Shown: positions 49,770-63,255 of the stretch, one piece after another | Position numbering within the stretch: the stretch's first letter is position 1 | How the letters are laid out: each line of letters opens with the position of its first letter | Assembly: GCF_900112255.1 (NCBI RefSeq) | Contig: NZ_FOLE01000001.1 | Span: 558,001-622,000, forward strand | Source of the DNA: Flexibacter flexilis DSM 6793 | GTDB taxonomy: Bacteria; Bacteroidota; Bacteroidia; Cytophagales; Flexibacteraceae | Direction: 5' to 3' | DNA length: 64,000 nucleotides | Notes under the pieces: model-generated | What the model saw: only the letters and a program-made list of their open reading frames with translations | Told to the model about the DNA's origin: nothing | The model's database searches: none | Translations under genes and position numbers: made by a program

Positions 49770-50003
49770 TTAATCTTTTTTACCAAACGCCTCTGCTATT
49801 ACTTCATGCAATAGGTTCTTGTAGTACTGCCGCTGATAGGTGAGCATAAAGCTCAATTCAGCCCATTTTTGAGCCAGCTCTTCATCTGTATAGTCTTCTG
49901 GCTGGCCCCCGTAATGATAACGCAGCAGTGCGTACATTCGTCGCCAGCTATCGTTTTCACTATCACTACTGATAGCAGCCCACTCAAAGACTTCTGCTAT
50001 AGC
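49770..50003 (-). CDS. GT extension of the tail assembly chaperone (by -1 frameshift)
   Basis: A 77-codon frame without its own start, continuous with the -1 frame after the slippery site at 50003-50009. It reads AIAEVFEWAAISSDSENDSW, then a middle part with MYALLRYHYGGQPEDYTDEE and AQKWAELSFMLTYQRQYY, and ends ...VIAEAFGKKD with TAA at 49772-49770. The acidic/aromatic content and position before the tape measure are those of the T part of G-T tail chaperones. The fusion is 191 residues (114 + 77). It fills a stretch otherwise without a gene. Confidence 0.82.
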   Translation of the reverse strand, partial: AIAEVFEWAAISSDSENDSWRRMYALLRYHYGGQPEDYTDEELAQKWAELSFMLTYQRQYYKNLLHEVIAEAFGKKD

Positions 50004-50009
50004 TTTTTT
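49972..50009 (-). promoter_or_regulatory. programmed -1 ribosomal frameshift site with stem-loop
   Basis: Slippery heptamer A AAA AAG at 50009-50003 (minus strand), the same as in E. coli dnaX, within the codons ACG AAA AAA AAG. Two codons later the zero frame ends (CTA TAG). A 7-bp stem ATAGCAG / CTGCTAT (50000-49994 with 49978-49972) could stimulate, though its two-base spacer is shorter than usual. Confidence 0.8.
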
Positions 50010-50344
50010 TTCGTCTCAAAAAGCAATTGGCATTGTTCGTTGAGCGCGAAATACACACTATCATCTTGTTCTGCGATATCTAAGTCGCCAGCAAGCACAC
50101 ATGAATTGATAGCCAGCTCTTGAATCTTAGTCACCCAACCAGCCTTACGTTCCGCCGCAATCTCTGCGATTGCATTGACTTGCTCTTTCGTCGGAGCGTG
50201 AATAAAAAATTCAACATAACCTGATTCGCTAAACTCAGATTCAAATTTTACAACTCCAATTTTGCGGCGTTGCTTATCTTTTGACTGCCAATCTTCAATA
50301 TCAGATGGCAATATTGATTTTGGTTTTTTCGTATTTAAAGCCAT
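49997..50344 (-). CDS. tail assembly chaperone, short form (gpG/Mu gp41-like)
   Basis: 115-residue zero-frame product, ending ...ETKKKL. Seen: an N-terminal lysine-rich start (NTKKPKSILPSDIEDWQ), a beta-rich part (VVKFESEFSESGYVEFFIHA), and helices with EQVNAIAEIAAERKAGW. Together with the frameshifted form it should coat the tape measure during tail assembly, as in lambda G/GT and Mu 41. The gene order tube, chaperone, tape measure fits. Confidence 0.82.
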   Translation of the reverse strand: MALNTKKPKSILPSDIEDWQSKDKQRRKIGVVKFESEFSESGYVEFFIHAPTKEQVNAIAEIAAERKAGWVTKIQELAINSCVLAGDLDIAEQDDSVYFALNEQCQLLFETKKKL

Positions 50345-56261: not shown

Positions 56262-56729
56262 ATGGGCAGAACCAAAACAGATGCACAAGCTACTGCATTC
56301 GAGCTATACGTTCATACCGAGAAAACGCAGAAAGAAATAGCCGTACTCGTGGGTGTTGCTGAGAAAACAATAGGGACATGGTCAGCCGCTGGACAATGGG
56401 AATCCGTGCGTTTAGCGAAGCGTACAACCACTCATGCAATCGTTGCGCAATTGGAAGATATATTGAAAAATCAGCTTGCGAAAACAGCCGATAAAGCGGC
56501 CAAAGAGGGGTTGGCCAAAGCTGACGCAGACATTATCACGCAGCTTACTAATTCGATTGACCAGATGCGACAAGGTGTACCAATTCGCTACATAGTGCAG
56601 GTACTCGAAGAATTCACCGACTACATTCGAAGCAATTGCGATAAGCGTATCACCGAGGAAGTAATCGGGCAACAGACAGGTTTTTTGGCGCGTATAAAAG
56701 ACAGATTGAATAATGTTAGCAAGCGATAA
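56262..56729 (+). CDS. terminase small subunit (HTH)
   Basis: 155 residues. N-terminal helix-turn-helix (KTQKEIAVLVGVAEKTIGTW, about 20-39) and WSAAGQWESVRLAK, followed by helices for oligomerisation (LEDILKNQLAKTADKAA, about 66-82). This is the layout of the DUF1804/Mu gp27-type TerS that selects the DNA for packaging. The next gene overlaps its end by 17 bases. Confidence 0.83.
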   Translation: MGRTKTDAQATAFELYVHTEKTQKEIAVLVGVAEKTIGTWSAAGQWESVRLAKRTTTHAIVAQLEDILKNQLAKTADKAAKEGLAKADADIITQLTNSIDQMRQGVPIRYIVQVLEEFTDYIRSNCDKRITEEVIGQQTGFLARIKDRLNNVSKR

Positions 56730-58233
56730 GCTCATTGAGCAGTATCTTGAAAAGCTGCAACGCATCAAGAGCGGCACAGACACACATGGCCGCGATAAAG
56801 AGTGCGAAAAAGACAAGCAAGCGCGATTCAATCGTGCGAAGAAAGACTATGCGTTTTTTGTCTCGGAATTTTTCCCACACTATGCCGAGTATCCATGTGC
56901 TCCGTTTCAAATTGCGGCGGCCAATGACATATTGCGCAATAAAGATATTAGCACAGTAGAGGAATGGGCACGCGGACACGCTAAATCAACGCACTTTGAC
57001 ATCTTTATCCCAATATGGCTGCACTTATTTCACAACCAACTTGATTGTATGCTGTTGGTGGGCAAGAATGAAGATGCTGCAATTCAGCTACTTTCAGACC
57101 TTCAAGGCGAGCTTGAAGGCAATGAAATGCTAAAGCACCATTTCGGAAAACTGGTGCTGTCTGGGTCGTGGGCTGAAGGAAATTTTATCACAAAAACAGG
57201 GGCAGCGTTTTTTGCGCTCGGCAAAGGCCAATCTCCACGTGGTCGACGCAATGGTGCTAATCGGCCCGACTACATTGTTTGCGACGACATAGACGATGAC
57301 AAAGCATGTCGCAATCCTGAACGTGTAGATGAAGAGGTCAAGTGGGTACTCACGGCCTTAATTCCTACCATGGGTACGAATCGCACGCGATTTGTGATGG
57401 CCAACAACCGAATCGGCAATAATACGATTCTTACAAACTTGGTCAAATTACCACGATTCAGGCATCGGGTGGTGAACGCTATCAATGCAGAAGGGAAACC
57501 CTCTTGGCCCGGCAAATTCACCATGGAGTTTTTAAACAGCCGCAAAGAAACGCTTGGTATCATATACTTTAATCAAGAATACCAGAACACGCCACATACG
57601 GCGGGCAAGATATTCAAGCCCGAATACTTTCAGTGGTGTAATCGTTTGCCGCTCAATCAATATGACCGAATCGTATTAGCGTGGGACGTGGCCTATTCAG
57701 AAGCCGCAACAGCCGACTTTAACGCCATGGTGATGGTCGGTTTAAAAGGAACGCAAAAACATGTGCTCAAAGCATTTGTTGACCGCTGCACCATGGAAAC
57801 GGCTTTACGATGGTTATTCCAGCTCCATAATATTTTGCCAAAAACAGTGACCGTGGAATATTACATGGAACAGCAATTCTGGACACAGGCGGTACAGCTT
57901 GCCATTGCGACTGTTCAGCAAGAATTTCAGGGGAAAAAATGGCCAAATCTTATCAAGATTGACAGACCAGGGCGCGGCCAGAACAAGTATAGCCGTATCG
58001 TTCAGATGTTGCCTGAATTTCAGCGTTATGAGATGTCTTTTGCAGAGCAAGAACGCTACAATACTGGCATGCAATTACTTGTCTCGCAGACGCAAGGAAT
58101 CGAACCAAATTACAAGACCAAAGATGATGGCCCTGATGCGCTTGAGCAATGCAATAATCAATTGCAACAAACCATCATAACAGGCGACTCAATACCCACG
58201 CTCGGAGGTTTCACAGAATCAAAAAAATACTAA
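56713..58233 (+). CDS. terminase large subunit (Mu gp28-like)
   Basis: 506-residue packaging motor with ATPase and nuclease. Walker A-like ARGHAKSTH (about 86-94), Walker B YIVCDDIDDD (about 187-196), nuclease acidic residues in VLAWDVAYSE (about 320) and KDDGPDALEQ (about 468). Family-typical FQIAAANDILRNKDISTVEE before Walker A. Would package headful from the integrated phage, as in Mu. Confidence 0.93.
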   Translation: MLASDKLIEQYLEKLQRIKSGTDTHGRDKECEKDKQARFNRAKKDYAFFVSEFFPHYAEYPCAPFQIAAANDILRNKDISTVEEWARGHAKSTHFDIFIPIWLHLFHNQLDCMLLVGKNEDAAIQLLSDLQGELEGNEMLKHHFGKLVLSGSWAEGNFITKTGAAFFALGKGQSPRGRRNGANRPDYIVCDDIDDDKACRNPERVDEEVKWVLTALIPTMGTNRTRFVMANNRIGNNTILTNLVKLPRFRHRVVNAINAEGKPSWPGKFTMEFLNSRKETLGIIYFNQEYQNTPHTAGKIFKPEYFQWCNRLPLNQYDRIVLAWDVAYSEAATADFNAMVMVGLKGTQKHVLKAFVDRCTMETALRWLFQLHNILPKTVTVEYYMEQQFWTQAVQLAIATVQQEFQGKKWPNLIKIDRPGRGQNKYSRIVQMLPEFQRYEMSFAEQERYNTGMQLLVSQTQGIEPNYKTKDDGPDALEQCNNQLQQTIITGDSIPTLGGFTESKKY

Positions 58234-58234
58234 A

Positions 58235-58828
58235 ATGCTATACTACTTCCTTACCACCAGCGACTTACAGGCCGCACTCAAGCAGGACCAATTCGACAGT
58301 ATTCGTGGCGATGATGATAATAATATAATCATTGCCGATACACAGGCTACTACGTTTGCCATTGATTACCTACGCGAACGCTTTGCCGCGGAGGACTGCT
58401 TCCCGATTATTTCAGATTATGACGCGCTTTCAGAATACAAAGCTGCGCCAGCCGATTATGATAGAACGATATACAGGCTTAATAATCAGATTGTTAATTA
58501 TGTATATTTTGAAGAAAAATTCTACAAATGCAAACAAGACTGTAGTGGCATCGACCCAACCAATAGTACTTATTGGGCCGAACACGACCCCCGACCAGCA
58601 CGCATAGTAGATTGCGTTACGGCCATTGCGATATACAAGCTACATACTCGAATTAATCCGCGAAAAATACCGCAGCTTCGCCGAGACAGATACGACGAAG
58701 AACGCGAATGGCTTGCTCAGGTGCTGGGCAAGGAAATAACGCCAGACCTGCCGCGCCCAGTGGTGATTAACGACTCAATTGATTATCCAATTTGGGGCAG
58801 CAACACCCCCCAACAAACCCTATACTAA
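58235..58828 (+). CDS. Gp36-like (DUF1320) head-tail protein
   Basis: 197 residues. Seen: YFLTTSDLQAALKQDQFDSI at the start, a helical region with AIDYLRERFAAEDCFPIISD, and VDCVTAIAIYKLHTRINPRK with YDEEREWLAQV, which match the Mu Gp36/DUF1320 family of neck proteins. In Mu gp36 follows the capsid; here it lies between terminase and portal. Starts right after the terminase stop. Confidence 0.8.
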   Translation: MLYYFLTTSDLQAALKQDQFDSIRGDDDNNIIIADTQATTFAIDYLRERFAAEDCFPIISDYDALSEYKAAPADYDRTIYRLNNQIVNYVYFEEKFYKCKQDCSGIDPTNSTYWAEHDPRPARIVDCVTAIAIYKLHTRINPRKIPQLRRDRYDEEREWLAQVLGKEITPDLPRPVVINDSIDYPIWGSNTPQQTLY

Positions 58829-58829
58829 T

Positions 58830-61019
58830 ATGTGGGATATTTTTAAGAAAAAGCCAAAAGCAATAGGTGATAATGAGCTGATGCAATTGGCATTCGATAG
58901 ATTAGATACGACTTCATTGCAGATGTTGGCCGCCGCGAAAGGTCATAAATCTGCAAGTGAGGGGATTGTTCCATATTTCCACAGTGAGCGAGCAGCCTCA
59001 TTGTTGGAGTGGTCGCAAGGCATCGAATTTGCCAAAAACCCACACATGTACAATCGCAAGCAATTGTATCGGACGTATGATAATGCGTACCGCGACTTGC
59101 ATTTGACAGGCATTATTGGCACTCGAATCACGTCTTTGCAGAATTCAAAATTCAAAGTAACGCGCGAACTTCGGCAAGATACAGGCGCAGAGGATTTGTT
59201 CAAAAATATGTGGTTCAGGGGCTATATTCGGGATATGGCCATGAGCATATTTGATGGCTACACACTGGCCGAAATAACGGAATTTAATGACCAATTAACT
59301 ACCGTTTCAATTGGCAATAAAAATTTACAAATACGCGAAATTTCAGAGATTTCGCGCGTGAACAAATCGCACGTAAGACCAGAGCTTAACAAGTGGTTTG
59401 CCTATGATTATGACACCGCATCGGCAGGATTTGACTACACTGCCGCACCCGATAATCTCTATTATATAGGAATCGGCGAGCGCAAAGACTTAGGTCTGAT
59501 GGAGCGAATTACGCCTATTGCGCTGGCCAAACGATACGCTCAAGCGACTTGGGGAAGTTTCAATGACAAATTGGCCGTACCGTTCAGGACTGTCACTATG
59601 AATGGGCAAGATGTCAAGCGAGAGCGTAAATTGGCAGAGATTCTTGACAAGATGGGTGCAGCGGGCTGGGGTATTTTACACCCTGGTGAAGAGCTAAAAT
59701 TTATTGAGGTGAGCAAGAGCGATGTACATAAGTGCTTCGCGGAATTGATGGCATATTGCGACAGCCAAATGTCTATTTCTGTATTACACCAGACTGGCAC
59801 AACGAACGAAAAATCCTATGCAGGTTCGGCGGCGGTGCATCAATCTGTGGCCGAAGAAGTACACGCTGCCGACCGTGCGTTTTTGGAATACAACGTCAAT
59901 ACGCAGCTCATGCCGCGATTGCTGGCACACGGCTATCCATTGCATGGCTTCAAATTCGAGCGAGACGACAAGACACAGATTCCTTTACTTGACCAAATCA
60001 AGATTGATGATACGCTGATGCGGCACTACCATGTAAGCCCTGAGTATGTGGCCAATAAGTACGATGTACCGATTGAATTTATCACGGAAAAATCAAGCAC
60101 TGGCGGCGGCGAGGCGGTATTAAAACCAGTCAATAATATTACCGACGTAGTCGAGCAAGTGGCGGCCAAGAAAACGGGAAAAATGTATTACGCTATGCCA
60201 GCAATGTATTCGCAAAAGCCGATGTCCGCGATTATGCGCACGGAATACCCTGTAACAATGGCCAGCGATAACACGCCTGAATTTAAAGGACTTGGCGGCC
60301 TGATTCAAAAAATATTTGATGGCAAAGCGCAGAAGATTGACCCAGACTTATGGCAATATATCAATGACGCGCTTATCGAAGTAGCCAATGAGGGCGTGGG
60401 TGTTGATTTACTTTCAGTAGATTATACGAAGCCCGATAATCAATTACTACAATTCATGCGCGACAATATATTTCTGTTTTCGTCCGCCAAGACGTGGCAG
60501 CAGATGCGCGAGATGTCGCAGCTATTATACGACGAAAACGGGCAAGTGCGTAGTGAATCTGAGTTCAAGCGATTAGCGAAAGGTACACATAACATGTACG
60601 TGCAGTATCTGAGCGTTGAACGCAACACCGCACTCGCGTCTGGGCAAATGTTTCAGATGTGGCAGGATTTTGCCGCCAATACGGATGCCTATCCTAACCT
60701 ACGCTATGAGACCGCAGGCGACAAGCGTGTACGTCCTTCGCATCAAGAATTGGAAGGCATTGTGCTACCGTTCAACGATTCGTTTTGGGATACTTATTGG
60801 CCACAAAATGATTGGGGTTGTCGCTGCCGCGTAACGCAAACACGTGATAAGGCCACGGATAAGGCTACGATTGTACAGCCTACCATTAGCCCAATATTCG
60901 CCAATAACGTGGGCAAGTCGGGCATCATATTTAAAGAAGACGCGCACCCATACTTCGACGTAACGCGCTCACAAATGAATGACATCAAGGCATTTACAAA
61001 CGACAAACTCAAAATATGA
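58830..61019 (+). CDS. portal protein (DUF935) fused to MuF-like minor head protein
   Basis: 729 residues from the ATG at 58830 (MWDIFKKKPKA). N-terminal about 1-430 is a Mu gp29/DUF935 portal: YDNAYRDLHLTGIIGTRITS, FDGYTLAEITEFND, MERITPIALAKRYAQATWGS and ADRAFLEYNVNTQLMPRL. C-terminal about 500-729 is a gp30/SPP1 gp7-like domain with the MuF signature YETAGDKRVRPSHQEL and WGCRCRVTQTRD. In Mu these are separate genes. The frame is open upstream to 58779 but that part overlaps the previous gene. The methyltransferase starts in its last codons (ATGA overlap). Confidence 0.87.
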   Translation: MWDIFKKKPKAIGDNELMQLAFDRLDTTSLQMLAAAKGHKSASEGIVPYFHSERAASLLEWSQGIEFAKNPHMYNRKQLYRTYDNAYRDLHLTGIIGTRITSLQNSKFKVTRELRQDTGAEDLFKNMWFRGYIRDMAMSIFDGYTLAEITEFNDQLTTVSIGNKNLQIREISEISRVNKSHVRPELNKWFAYDYDTASAGFDYTAAPDNLYYIGIGERKDLGLMERITPIALAKRYAQATWGSFNDKLAVPFRTVTMNGQDVKRERKLAEILDKMGAAGWGILHPGEELKFIEVSKSDVHKCFAELMAYCDSQMSISVLHQTGTTNEKSYAGSAAVHQSVAEEVHAADRAFLEYNVNTQLMPRLLAHGYPLHGFKFERDDKTQIPLLDQIKIDDTLMRHYHVSPEYVANKYDVPIEFITEKSSTGGGEAVLKPVNNITDVVEQVAAKKTGKMYYAMPAMYSQKPMSAIMRTEYPVTMASDNTPEFKGLGGLIQKIFDGKAQKIDPDLWQYINDALIEVANEGVGVDLLSVDYTKPDNQLLQFMRDNIFLFSSAKTWQQMREMSQLLYDENGQVRSESEFKRLAKGTHNMYVQYLSVERNTALASGQMFQMWQDFAANTDAYPNLRYETAGDKRVRPSHQELEGIVLPFNDSFWDTYWPQNDWGCRCRVTQTRDKATDKATIVQPTISPIFANNVGKSGIIFKEDAHPYFDVTRSQMNDIKAFTNDKLKI

Positions 61020-62146
61020 TAACATTACTTAATACTGATTTCGCAAATCACATTAACAATATTCCTGACAAGTCAGTGGATATTGTATGTATAGACCCTC
61101 CGTATCTTTATTTAAAACATAAACTTGATATACCTTTTAACGAAAAGGCGTTGTTTGATGGCATCGCAAGGATTATTAAGCCTGAAGGATTTGTTATCTT
61201 ATTCGGGCGTGGTACTTCGTTTTATCGTTGGAATACAATGCTTGCCGAACTTGGGTTTAATTTCAAGGAGGAAATAATTTGGGATAAATCCCAATGTTCA
61301 AGCCCCTTGATGGCTATTAGTAGAGTACATGAAACCGTTTCGTTGTGGTCTATCATAGGTAAGATTCACAAAGTGAAAGTGCCTTATTTGGAGATGAAAA
61401 AACATGACATAGGTAGTATTGTGCAGGATATTAAGCGTATGCGTTCAATCTTTAAGGACACTAAGTCTATGCAGGCGGTGCTTGACTTCTTGGAAAACAA
61501 TACAGTAGCGTATCACGAAGCTACTTATAAGCATCGCCACGCAGATAATGGCGAGCATGGTACAATGGATAGATGTGTAGCGGTAGAGCGCTCTACGCAA
61601 GAGGGGTTAAACGAAAAATCTATAATCAGAAGCGACTTTTCGGGAGATTTCAAAAAAAACGTACCGACAACTCTTTGCGGCACAAAAGCTAAGGACGGAT
61701 TAAAGGTAGTTACTGTTGCTCAATCTATGGCATGTGGCTGTAACGAAAAATCCATTATACGAAGTGATTATGAATCACATGATAAATTTACAAAACACTA
61801 TGTAAATGCAGACAAAAGATGCTCTGGAAATAGATGTACAGACGTTGCTCAATCTATAACCTTTGGACTAAACGAGAAAAGTATTATCAAACAGGTTCGC
61901 GACCATTATTCAGCCATACATCCAACGCAAAAGCCTGTTAAACTACTAAAGCGAATCATGGCTTTGTGTTTCAATAAAAAAACAGAAAGTATATCAGTTG
62001 TGGACTTTTTCGCAGGTAGTGGCTCTACCTTAATAGCTACTCTTGAGTTGTCACAAGAATACCCTAATATTCAATTTAATGGCTTAGGGTGTGAGATTGA
62101 TAAAGGCTACTATGAAGATGCTAAGCAAAGAATAGATGGGATTTGA
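61016..62146 (+). CDS. DNA methyltransferase, beta class, with tripled recognition module
   Basis: 376 residues, paralogue of 39762-40629. Catalytic CIDPPYLYLKHKLD (about 28), FGRGTSFYRWNT, and AdoMet motif FFAGSGSTLIATLELS (about 335) followed by LGCEIDKGYYED. The target-recognition part (about 165-305) has three copies of a module spaced 43-44 residues (around V190, V234 and V277: VAQS-x4-G-x-NEKSII), while the other methyltransferase has a single related copy (TLKSIVEGMKEQSII). It interrupts the head operon between portal-MuF and gpG-like genes and overlaps both. Confidence 0.87.
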   Translation: MITLLNTDFANHINNIPDKSVDIVCIDPPYLYLKHKLDIPFNEKALFDGIARIIKPEGFVILFGRGTSFYRWNTMLAELGFNFKEEIIWDKSQCSSPLMAISRVHETVSLWSIIGKIHKVKVPYLEMKKHDIGSIVQDIKRMRSIFKDTKSMQAVLDFLENNTVAYHEATYKHRHADNGEHGTMDRCVAVERSTQEGLNEKSIIRSDFSGDFKKNVPTTLCGTKAKDGLKVVTVAQSMACGCNEKSIIRSDYESHDKFTKHYVNADKRCSGNRCTDVAQSITFGLNEKSIIKQVRDHYSAIHPTQKPVKLLKRIMALCFNKKTESISVVDFFAGSGSTLIATLELSQEYPNIQFNGLGCEIDKGYYEDAKQRIDGI

Positions 62147-62684
62147 TAAGAATTTAAAACAATTGGCCACGCAATTAGTACGTGATTGCGTGGCAATTAC
62201 CAGAGTAGAGCTGCTGAATGAGAGTGTTGGATCTTTTAAAAAACAAGGCTGGGATGGGAAACCGTGGGCTAAACGAAAAAATGACAAAGATGCAGGTCGC
62301 GGCATATTGATTGGTAAAGGCTCTGGCCAGTTATGGCGCAGCCTTCGCACCGATTCGCGCGGACTGGATATTCGCGCATTTTCTGACAAGCCTTACGCAC
62401 AAGCACACAATAAAGGCTTTGTCGGGCAAGTAGTACAGAATGTACCTGAGCACCAACGGCACAATATCAAGTCTATGCGAGTATCGCAAACCAGCCTTAA
62501 GTCTCGTAAAACTTATACGATAAAAAAGAAAGTCGTCGGAAGTATTAGTACAGTTCGGGCGCATCAGCGCAAGCAGAACATCAAGCTCCCGAAACGCCAA
62601 TTTTTAGGCTATACGGTCAATCTTGGCAATCGCATGAAAACACAAATGGAAGCACGATTTAACGAACTTTTCAACAATGTTTAA
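62136..62684 (+). CDS. phage virion morphogenesis protein (Mu gpG-like)
   Basis: 182 residues. Basic; family hallmarks SFKKQGWDGKPWAKRKND, then ILIGKGSGQLWRSLRTDS and YAQAHNKGF, and IKLPKRQFLGYT near the C-terminus, as in Mu gpG/phage virion morphogenesis (tail completion) proteins. It completes the neck before tail joining. Overlaps the methyltransferase by 11 bases and the next gene by 8. Confidence 0.84.
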   Translation: MGFDKNLKQLATQLVRDCVAITRVELLNESVGSFKKQGWDGKPWAKRKNDKDAGRGILIGKGSGQLWRSLRTDSRGLDIRAFSDKPYAQAHNKGFVGQVVQNVPEHQRHNIKSMRVSQTSLKSRKTYTIKKKVVGSISTVRAHQRKQNIKLPKRQFLGYTVNLGNRMKTQMEARFNELFNNV

Positions 62685-63255
62685 ACATATTGTAAATCTA
62701 TACAAAGCACTTGGCGCATACATTCTTAGCGAGTGCAAGGACGAAGACGGCAATTTGATTATCAAATACTTTGATGAATATCAAGGCCAAGATGATTGGG
62801 AAGAAGACGAGTCGCCAGTTGATTACCCAGCCGTATTTTTCGAGCCATTGATTACGCCGAATGATATTGGCCGACTTCACCAAATCATGAATATAGACTT
62901 CTCCCTGTACGTGGCGAATACGACACTGGAGGATACAAACATAGGAGCAAGCAATGTGGACGAAGCCTTAAAAGTGTACGACTATGCACAGGCTGTTTTG
63001 GCGTATGTAAATGGCTGGAAAAGTGATGAAGTCGGCAGCATTACGCTCAAGGAAATCAAGAAAAAAACGAGCCGTAGTAATGTGAATGTACTAATACTCA
63101 CATTTACTACTAAGCTCGTTGTGGCTGACAGCGAAACAATACATAAGCCTCGCACAACCATTACACTCGATGGCAATGTAACTATCTCGAAGACGGGCGG
63201 CTCGCCACCAGCACCATCTACGCCGCCGTTAGGCAGCTTGTACGATTTGTCGTGA
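62677..63255 (+). CDS. tail terminator-like protein (Mu gp37 position)
   Basis: 192 residues. Alpha/beta N-terminal region (VNLYKALGAYILSECKDEDG, acidic loop DDWEEDESP) and a beta-rich core (IMNIDFSLYVANTTLE, NVLILTFTTKLVV); Pro/Ser-rich end. The fold and position after gpG are those of Mu gp37-type terminators. Convergent with the 63229-63426 gene, whose end overlaps by 27 bases. Confidence 0.62.
   Translation: MFKHIVNLYKALGAYILSECKDEDGNLIIKYFDEYQGQDDWEEDESPVDYPAVFFEPLITPNDIGRLHQIMNIDFSLYVANTTLEDTNIGASNVDEALKVYDYAQAVLAYVNGWKSDEVGSITLKEIKKKTSRSNVNVLILTFTTKLVVADSETIHKPRTTITLDGNVTISKTGGSPPAPSTPPLGSLYDLS

Follow-up and report, generated by a model that had tools for sequence, protein, structure and literature searches.

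A putative programmed -1 frameshift in the tail assembly chaperone gene of a Mu-like Bacteroidota prophage

The DNA analyzed here, referred to as the window, is a stretch of 64 kb from the 4.25 Mb genome of Flexibacter flexilis DSM 6793, the right part of which carries a Mu-like prophage encoding a Mu-type portal, an F-like protein, a gp36-like protein, a Clp-type protease, and a capsid protein. The tail genes lie on the minus strand in the order sheath, tube, chaperone, and tape measure, with the chaperone ORFs placed between the tube and tape measure genes and with DUF6046 and hub genes following beyond the tape measure (Table 1). In the region 56262-63255, the genes for the Mu-type portal, the F-like protein, the gp36-like protein, and an N6/N4 DNA methylase are on the plus strand and thus have the reverse orientation to the tail genes. 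A first-pass annotation, made from the letters of the window, had claimed that the 115-codon frame ends in ACG AAA AAA AAG CTA TAG with an A AAA AAG heptamer, and both readings are exact on the minus strand, where the heptamer is in phase and the frame opens with the ATG at 50344. The -1 frame begins with GCT at 50003-50001, remains open to 49773, and is closed by the stop at 49772-49770, which agrees with the 77-codon stretch reported there to end 7 bases short of the tape measure ATG (49762). In the window locus, ATG, GTG, and TTG are all absent ahead of the conserved core of this extension. By arithmetic, the predicted fusion would have 114 + 77 = 191 aa, and its junction should read ETKKKA (...ETKKK-AIAEVF...) instead of the ETKKA given previously, since slippage on either AAA leaves three lysines in the product.

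Table 1. Features of the putative frameshift locus and the adjacent tail genes (positions in the window)
Feature	Position	Strand	Basis
Frame-0 ORF, 115 aa, likely short form of the tail assembly chaperone (G-like)	49997..50344	-	ORF call; phrog_19076; fold alignment
Candidate slippery heptamer A AAA AAG	50003..50009	-	Sequence, in phase; 3' part of the A8 tract 50004-50011
Frame-0 stop TAG	49997..49999	-	Single codon (CTA) between heptamer and TAG
-1 frame extension (putative T-like part), 77 codons + stop TAA	49770..50003	-	Homologues in 156 sequences; codon-position pattern
Possible stem-loop past the slip site, 7 bp, 15-nt loop	49972..50000	-	Sequence
Tail tape measure protein, 677 aa	47729..49762	-	PF10145 E 4.6e-16; phrog_28 E 3.2e-40
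Tail tube protein, 142 aa	50364..50792	-	phrog_4579 tail protein E 1.2e-17; placed after sheath
Tail sheath DUF2586, 426 aa	50792..52072	-	PF10758 E 3.6e-70; phrog_907 tail sheath

Taken by itself, the window provides modest evidence, with an open stretch of 77 codons occurring in 237 of 20,000 first-order Markov sequences and with AAAAAAAAG found 7 times in the window when both strands are counted. The question of chance is settled by the relatives. A direct search with the 115-aa protein yielded no relatives in viral contigs and phages only at E 3 or worse, and of the 11 genomes of the family the single one that matched was the window itself; because almost nothing was obtained in this way, the sheath (DUF2586) was adopted as the anchor for locating relatives. 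Loci were drawn from phages, viral contigs, and GTDB genomes and by searching genomes, the viral loci being the best 80 of 273, and the resulting 189 sequences (188 loci and the window) were scanned in six frames with iterated profiles of both chaperone parts. Two further alignments comprised 43 hand-picked relatives and the window. The two parts occur in tandem in 156 of the 189 sequences, a few of which are copies of the window; among these 156, the extension is in the -1 frame in all but one, which has it in the +1 frame, and no in-frame fusion occurs. Related phages do keep both frames (155 of the 156 show the -1 arrangement), a point on which the first-pass annotation had made its proposal depend, and the proposal itself, a short form together with a 191-residue fusion, is supported by them as the best reading. 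The 33 sequences without an extension match consist of 9 without a chaperone match, 8 truncated near a contig end, two of which (L040 and L150) show AAAAAAG and the start of the extension, and 16 from one clade that truly lack it. De-duplication reduced the 156 sequences to 128 (identical sequence) and then to 119 (90% positional identity, ungapped, a crude measure), removing 37 rows in total, and the set of 118 loci used below is made up of the 119, with the window included as one locus, minus the +1 case.

Several members of the collection deviate from the common arrangement. The +1 case (L011:6986-7589, from a metagenome) is the sole locus where the extension is in the +1 (or -2) frame, and its run of nine A may point to slippage of the polymerase, to a -2 shift like that of Mu, or to an error in the assembly. 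In the Flavobacterium phages pippi8-1 (L189:6640-7182) and FPSV-S1 (L190:6220-6747), the frame-0 chaperone is tandemly duplicated, with the profile matching twice per ORF. The same arrangement is found in the 111-kb Bacteroides phage BS-TP1 (L191:6085-6650), with the extension in the -1 frame; there, an A run is absent near the stop, and an in-phase A AAT TTA is seen by eye in the overlap.

The candidate slip site, AAAAAAN, stands exactly one codon before the frame-0 stop, starting 10 nt ahead of it, in 82 of the 118 loci, against a background of 21 occurrences among 8496 positions of the same phase located over 31 nt ahead of the stop. The overlap includes a heptamer of the XXXYYYZ type in 104 of the 119 loci, the last one being AAAAAAG in 61, AAAAAAC in 19, AAAAAAA in 15, AAAAAAT in 5, AAATTTT in 3, and GGGAAAG in 1, and the 15 loci without such a heptamer mostly hold, by eye, A AAG GAR, G GGG GAR, G GAA AAG, or G GAG GAG at the same spacing. 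The frame-0 stop is TAG in 74, TAA in 40, and TGA in 4 of the 118 loci, while the preceding long ORF ends with TAA in 95, TAG in 16, and TGA in 7; the excess of TAG may merely reflect the codon required in the -1 frame.

The reading we prefer, with a probability of roughly 0.9, is that this gene of a Bacteroidota prophage, which is Mu-like and has a contractile tail, specifies the tail assembly chaperone, and that the chaperone would be produced as a short form and, through a -1 frameshift, as the 191-aa fusion. Most ribosomes would halt at TAG to give the short form of 115 aa, and a minority would slip, with lysine tRNA on AAA in the P site and AAG in the A site moving one base back onto AAA AAA, and would then continue through the 77 codons to complete the fusion. 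By analogy with lambda G/GT, the common part might coat the tape measure protein, while the rare extension might recruit tube subunits. The arrangement, its conservation, the selection on the extension as protein, the downstream structure enriched in the family, and the likeness of the frame-0 model to known chaperones are observed here, and from them we infer the slippage, its rate, and the T-like role of the extension. Ribosomal -1 slippage at A AAA AAG fits the host, because the only tRNA-Lys found there has the anticodon TTT, with no CTT among 46 tRNA matches, one of which (L250) ARAGORN did not call; the rescan covered all but three further copies. In E. coli, it is the lack of a CUU lysine tRNA that lets AAG slip easily. 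The idea that phages of hosts with tRNA-Lys-CUU avoid A AAA AAG gave no clear rule: a fixed anticodon-arm pattern matched 13 of 39 genomes and pointed to 19 loci, of which ARAGORN confirmed 12 as carrying a tRNA-Lys (CTT), but phages of such hosts include those with AAAAAAG (L058, L068, and L092) besides others with AAAAAAC (L074, L080, and L091), AAAAAAA (L049 and L095), or no heptamer (L093 and L094). The absence of the pattern means little, because it misses the window host's own tRNA-Lys.

A fusion could also be made if RNA polymerase, not the ribosome, slipped on the A8 tract and added one A (or dropped two), so that part of the mRNA would encode the fusion in frame, but we regard this as improbable. 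Polymerase slippage has been linked to runs longer than 7 (PMC3711429), a length reached by the eight A of the window and by 24 of the 118 loci, which have runs of 8 to 10; the longest run is, however, only six A in 70 loci and five or fewer in 18. In addition, the site is in a fixed phase with the frame-0 codons and is followed by stem-loops 5-8 nt downstream, an arrangement that suits ribosomes.

The extension evolves as a protein and is under selection. In 26 close pairs, which overlap in their members, 195, 120, and 503 substitutions are found at positions 1, 2, and 3 of the -1 frame codons, respectively, and 363 of the 655 changed codons are synonymous. The conserved core can be written approximately as NALIRxHFxIDPxxLxDxxW, and the AlphaFold model of the extension is helical and confident, with a pLDDT of 91.2. 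Profiles of PHROGs matched 0 of 44 members, the Foldseek search of the model against the PDB gave nothing below E 4.4, and no relation to lambda T was detectable. Pfam matches of single members (best E 0.002, sucrose synthase) were taken as chance, as was AcrIE3, to which 31 positions matched at E 0.062 when PDB sequences were searched with a profile. Judged by these searches, the extension is a new conserved family that is absent from Pfam and PHROGs and has no PDB relative found.

The extension might instead be a gene of its own, on which ribosomes reinitiate once they have passed the frame-0 stop. The record of pippi8-1 annotates the end of the extension as a separate hypothetical gene, and 23 of the 118 loci have ATG, GTG, or TTG in the stretch that runs from where the -1 frame opens to 8 codons beyond the stop. 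This explanation is very unlikely, because the other 95 loci, among them the window by inspection, have no start codon in that stretch and because the heptamer is held at one spacing. The notion that sequencing error or gene decay split one ORF into two, for which it can be said that homopolymer runs are error-prone and that the single +1 case, with its nine A, may be such an error, is already refuted for the family by the complete lack of in-frame fusions in the 189 sequences and by the selection acting on the extension as a protein.

The downstream region from +3 to +53 past the site folds more stably than its dinucleotide shuffles, with a mean z of -1.62 (sem 0.15), and 41% of the 118 loci are below -2, against mean z values of -0.50 to -0.10 in four control windows. 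Of the 108 loci with a local stem at -4 kcal/mol or better, 60 have the best one beginning 5 to 8 nt past the heptamer; a stem of that stability is also found in 88 of 118 control windows, and one of -8 kcal/mol or better is found in 85 loci versus 42 controls. The 7-bp stem indicated by the first-pass annotation does exist, with the arms ATAGCAG (50000-49994) and CTGCTAT (49978-49972) and a start 2 nt after the heptamer, but local folding there is not significant (z of -0.91, -0.18, and -1.53 for three lengths); the stem-loop enrichment is family-wide only and is not significant in the window alone.

Upstream of the site, pairing with the anti-Shine-Dalgarno (anti-SD) sequence at -20 to -6 averages -3.675, compared with -3.060 in synonymous-codon permutations of the same genes, none of 100 being as low, while the z values of four control windows range from -0.6 to +1.2. 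The pairing peaks within -16 to 0, and the excess remains in 32 loci with less than 35% identity (0 of 300 permutations). Among 26 oligos compared, the anti-SD gave the most extreme value, a z of -4.09 versus -3.89 to +0.54 for the 25 permuted decoys, most of which were shifted too, so part of the SD-like signal is general G/purine richness. The window locus has little SD-like sequence (energy -1.5) and no strong element, and the 16S rRNA of its host ends with CACCTCCTTT, which is the canonical anti-SD. Ribosomes of Bacteroidia are reported not to recognize SD sequences (PMC9976891; PMC8710568), and, as described in the latter source, 523 of 726 genomes retain the +1 site of prfB and its SD, whereas Weeksellaceae, which have an altered anti-SD, do not possess it. 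Our five Weeksellaceae loci, which are not independent, all have no anti-SD pairing and none has AAAAAAG, whereas the 37 other named loci have a mean pairing of -4.5, with 15 of them at -5 or lower. This contrast is weak because several of the five loci share one lineage and because look-alike loci elsewhere, labelled Pedobacter, Capnocytophaga, and Flavobacteriaceae, also score 0. One tentative possibility, which we would sooner doubt than adopt, is that Bacteroidota phages drive the -1 shift by pairing between mRNA and an anti-SD that is reportedly hidden at initiation and would be freed in the elongating ribosome, that phages of Weeksellaceae, with their reportedly altered anti-SD, have lost the element and use other heptamers, and that the phage in the window relies on its longer A run and stem.

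The frame-0 part matches phrog_19076, a family of unknown function, with an E-value of 5.6e-5 for the window ORF, and 43 of 44 members do so as well. Its model (pLDDT 85.9) aligns with 3klu, that is, YqbN, which we take to be a chaperone, at Z 7.7 (rmsd 3.0 over 81), with 5ir0 at Z 7.1, with 3fgx at Z 6.9, and with 2ob9, the HK97 tail assembly chaperone, at Z 5.8 (rmsd 3.3 over 75); all of these Z scores are below 8, and the next structure, an unrelated one, has Z 3.4. Foldseek ranked 2ob9 first of 350,542 chains, with an E-value of 1.4 that is not significant alone. The model thus suggests that the frame-0 part likely has the HK97/YqbN chaperone fold.

The 16 loci that truly lack the extension, mostly from Flavobacterium, keep the sheath, the tube, and the short chaperone and have no slip site either. 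PF10145 was found in none of the eight such genomes or records searched, a result that would miss tape measures belonging to other families. Five islands were read across 19 kb, and in these variable ORFs are situated at the tape measure position, one of them with a nuclease domain. Against the absence of a tape measure, this ORF weakly matches tape measure proteins in PHROGs (E 7.8e-4 over about 92 residues). Should the islands indeed be without a tape measure, the loss of the extension together with it would fit a T-like role. These five Flavobacterium-type islands (L251-L255, each of 19 kb and surrounding the sheath loci L077, L081, L071, L076, and L079) contain an S24-type regulator, the sheath, the tube, the short chaperone, and baseplate-like genes, with no head genes or tape measure recognized and with variable cargo ORFs, one having a PF13930 nuclease domain, and are possibly a domesticated contractile injection system. 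In two of them (L253:9210-9698 and L255:14796-15248), a second protein before the hub genes resembles another tail chaperone by eye; for that of L253, Pfam and PHROG gave no match.

The slip site of lambda is G GGA AAG. The loci described here differ from lambda G/GT in their A AAA AAG-type site, in the lack of a detectable sequence relation, in belonging to contractile-tailed, Mu-like Bacteroidota phages, and in having an extension outside Pfam and PHROGs, but share with it the location between the tube and tape measure genes, the two overlapping ORFs, and a -1 shift shortly before the first of these ends, which gives, here by prediction, a short form plus a fusion. The locus can, on these grounds, be regarded as a well-supported new member of the class represented by lambda G/GT (Xu, Hendrix and Duda 2004, as cited in PMC5009743). 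The first-pass annotation had named both lambda and Mu as precedents for -1 shifts in tail chaperones; that of lambda holds, but Mu is reported to use a -2 frameshift (PMC5009743). The prophage resembles Mu in its general gene neighborhood, whereas the extension is in the -1 frame in all but one of the 156 sequences, only L011 having it in a frame reachable by -2. The same heptamer is used in E. coli dnaX, where it is described along with an upstream SD-like element and a downstream stem-loop (PMC3711429), both seen here at the family level; the dnaX shift, however, yields a shorter product and not a longer one, the window has little SD-like sequence, and the hosts are reported to hide the anti-SD. 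With prfB of Bacteroidia (PMC8710568), the loci have in common that a recoding site is accompanied by an SD-like element although the hosts do not initiate with SD sequences; the gene, the direction (+1 in prfB), and the spacing are different. Frameshifts in HK97-type chaperones have been predicted and tested in the GeneTack work, with an efficiency of 7% (PMC3711429), and the tail chaperone frameshift class is also predicted by PRFect (PMC10885494).

A search of the open-licence literature for a tail chaperone frameshift in Bacteroidota, Flavobacterium, Peternella, Hankyphage, or Winoviridae found no prior description, and the main text of the paper describing Peternella contains neither "frameshift" nor "chaperone". 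The extension is left unannotated in the records of Peternella_1, FPSV-S1, and BS-TP1. To judge from the comparative evidence, the programmed -1 frameshift is very probably genuine; its kind is known, but for this group of phages no earlier description was found. A likely function is thereby given to phrog_19076, a phage protein family listed as unknown, and a conserved second half is uncovered that is joined to the chaperone in none of the four annotated phage records. The collection also amounts to roughly one hundred natural versions of a single frameshift signal from a phylum whose ribosomes are unusual, so that pairing between mRNA and rRNA during elongation becomes testable in Bacteroidota.
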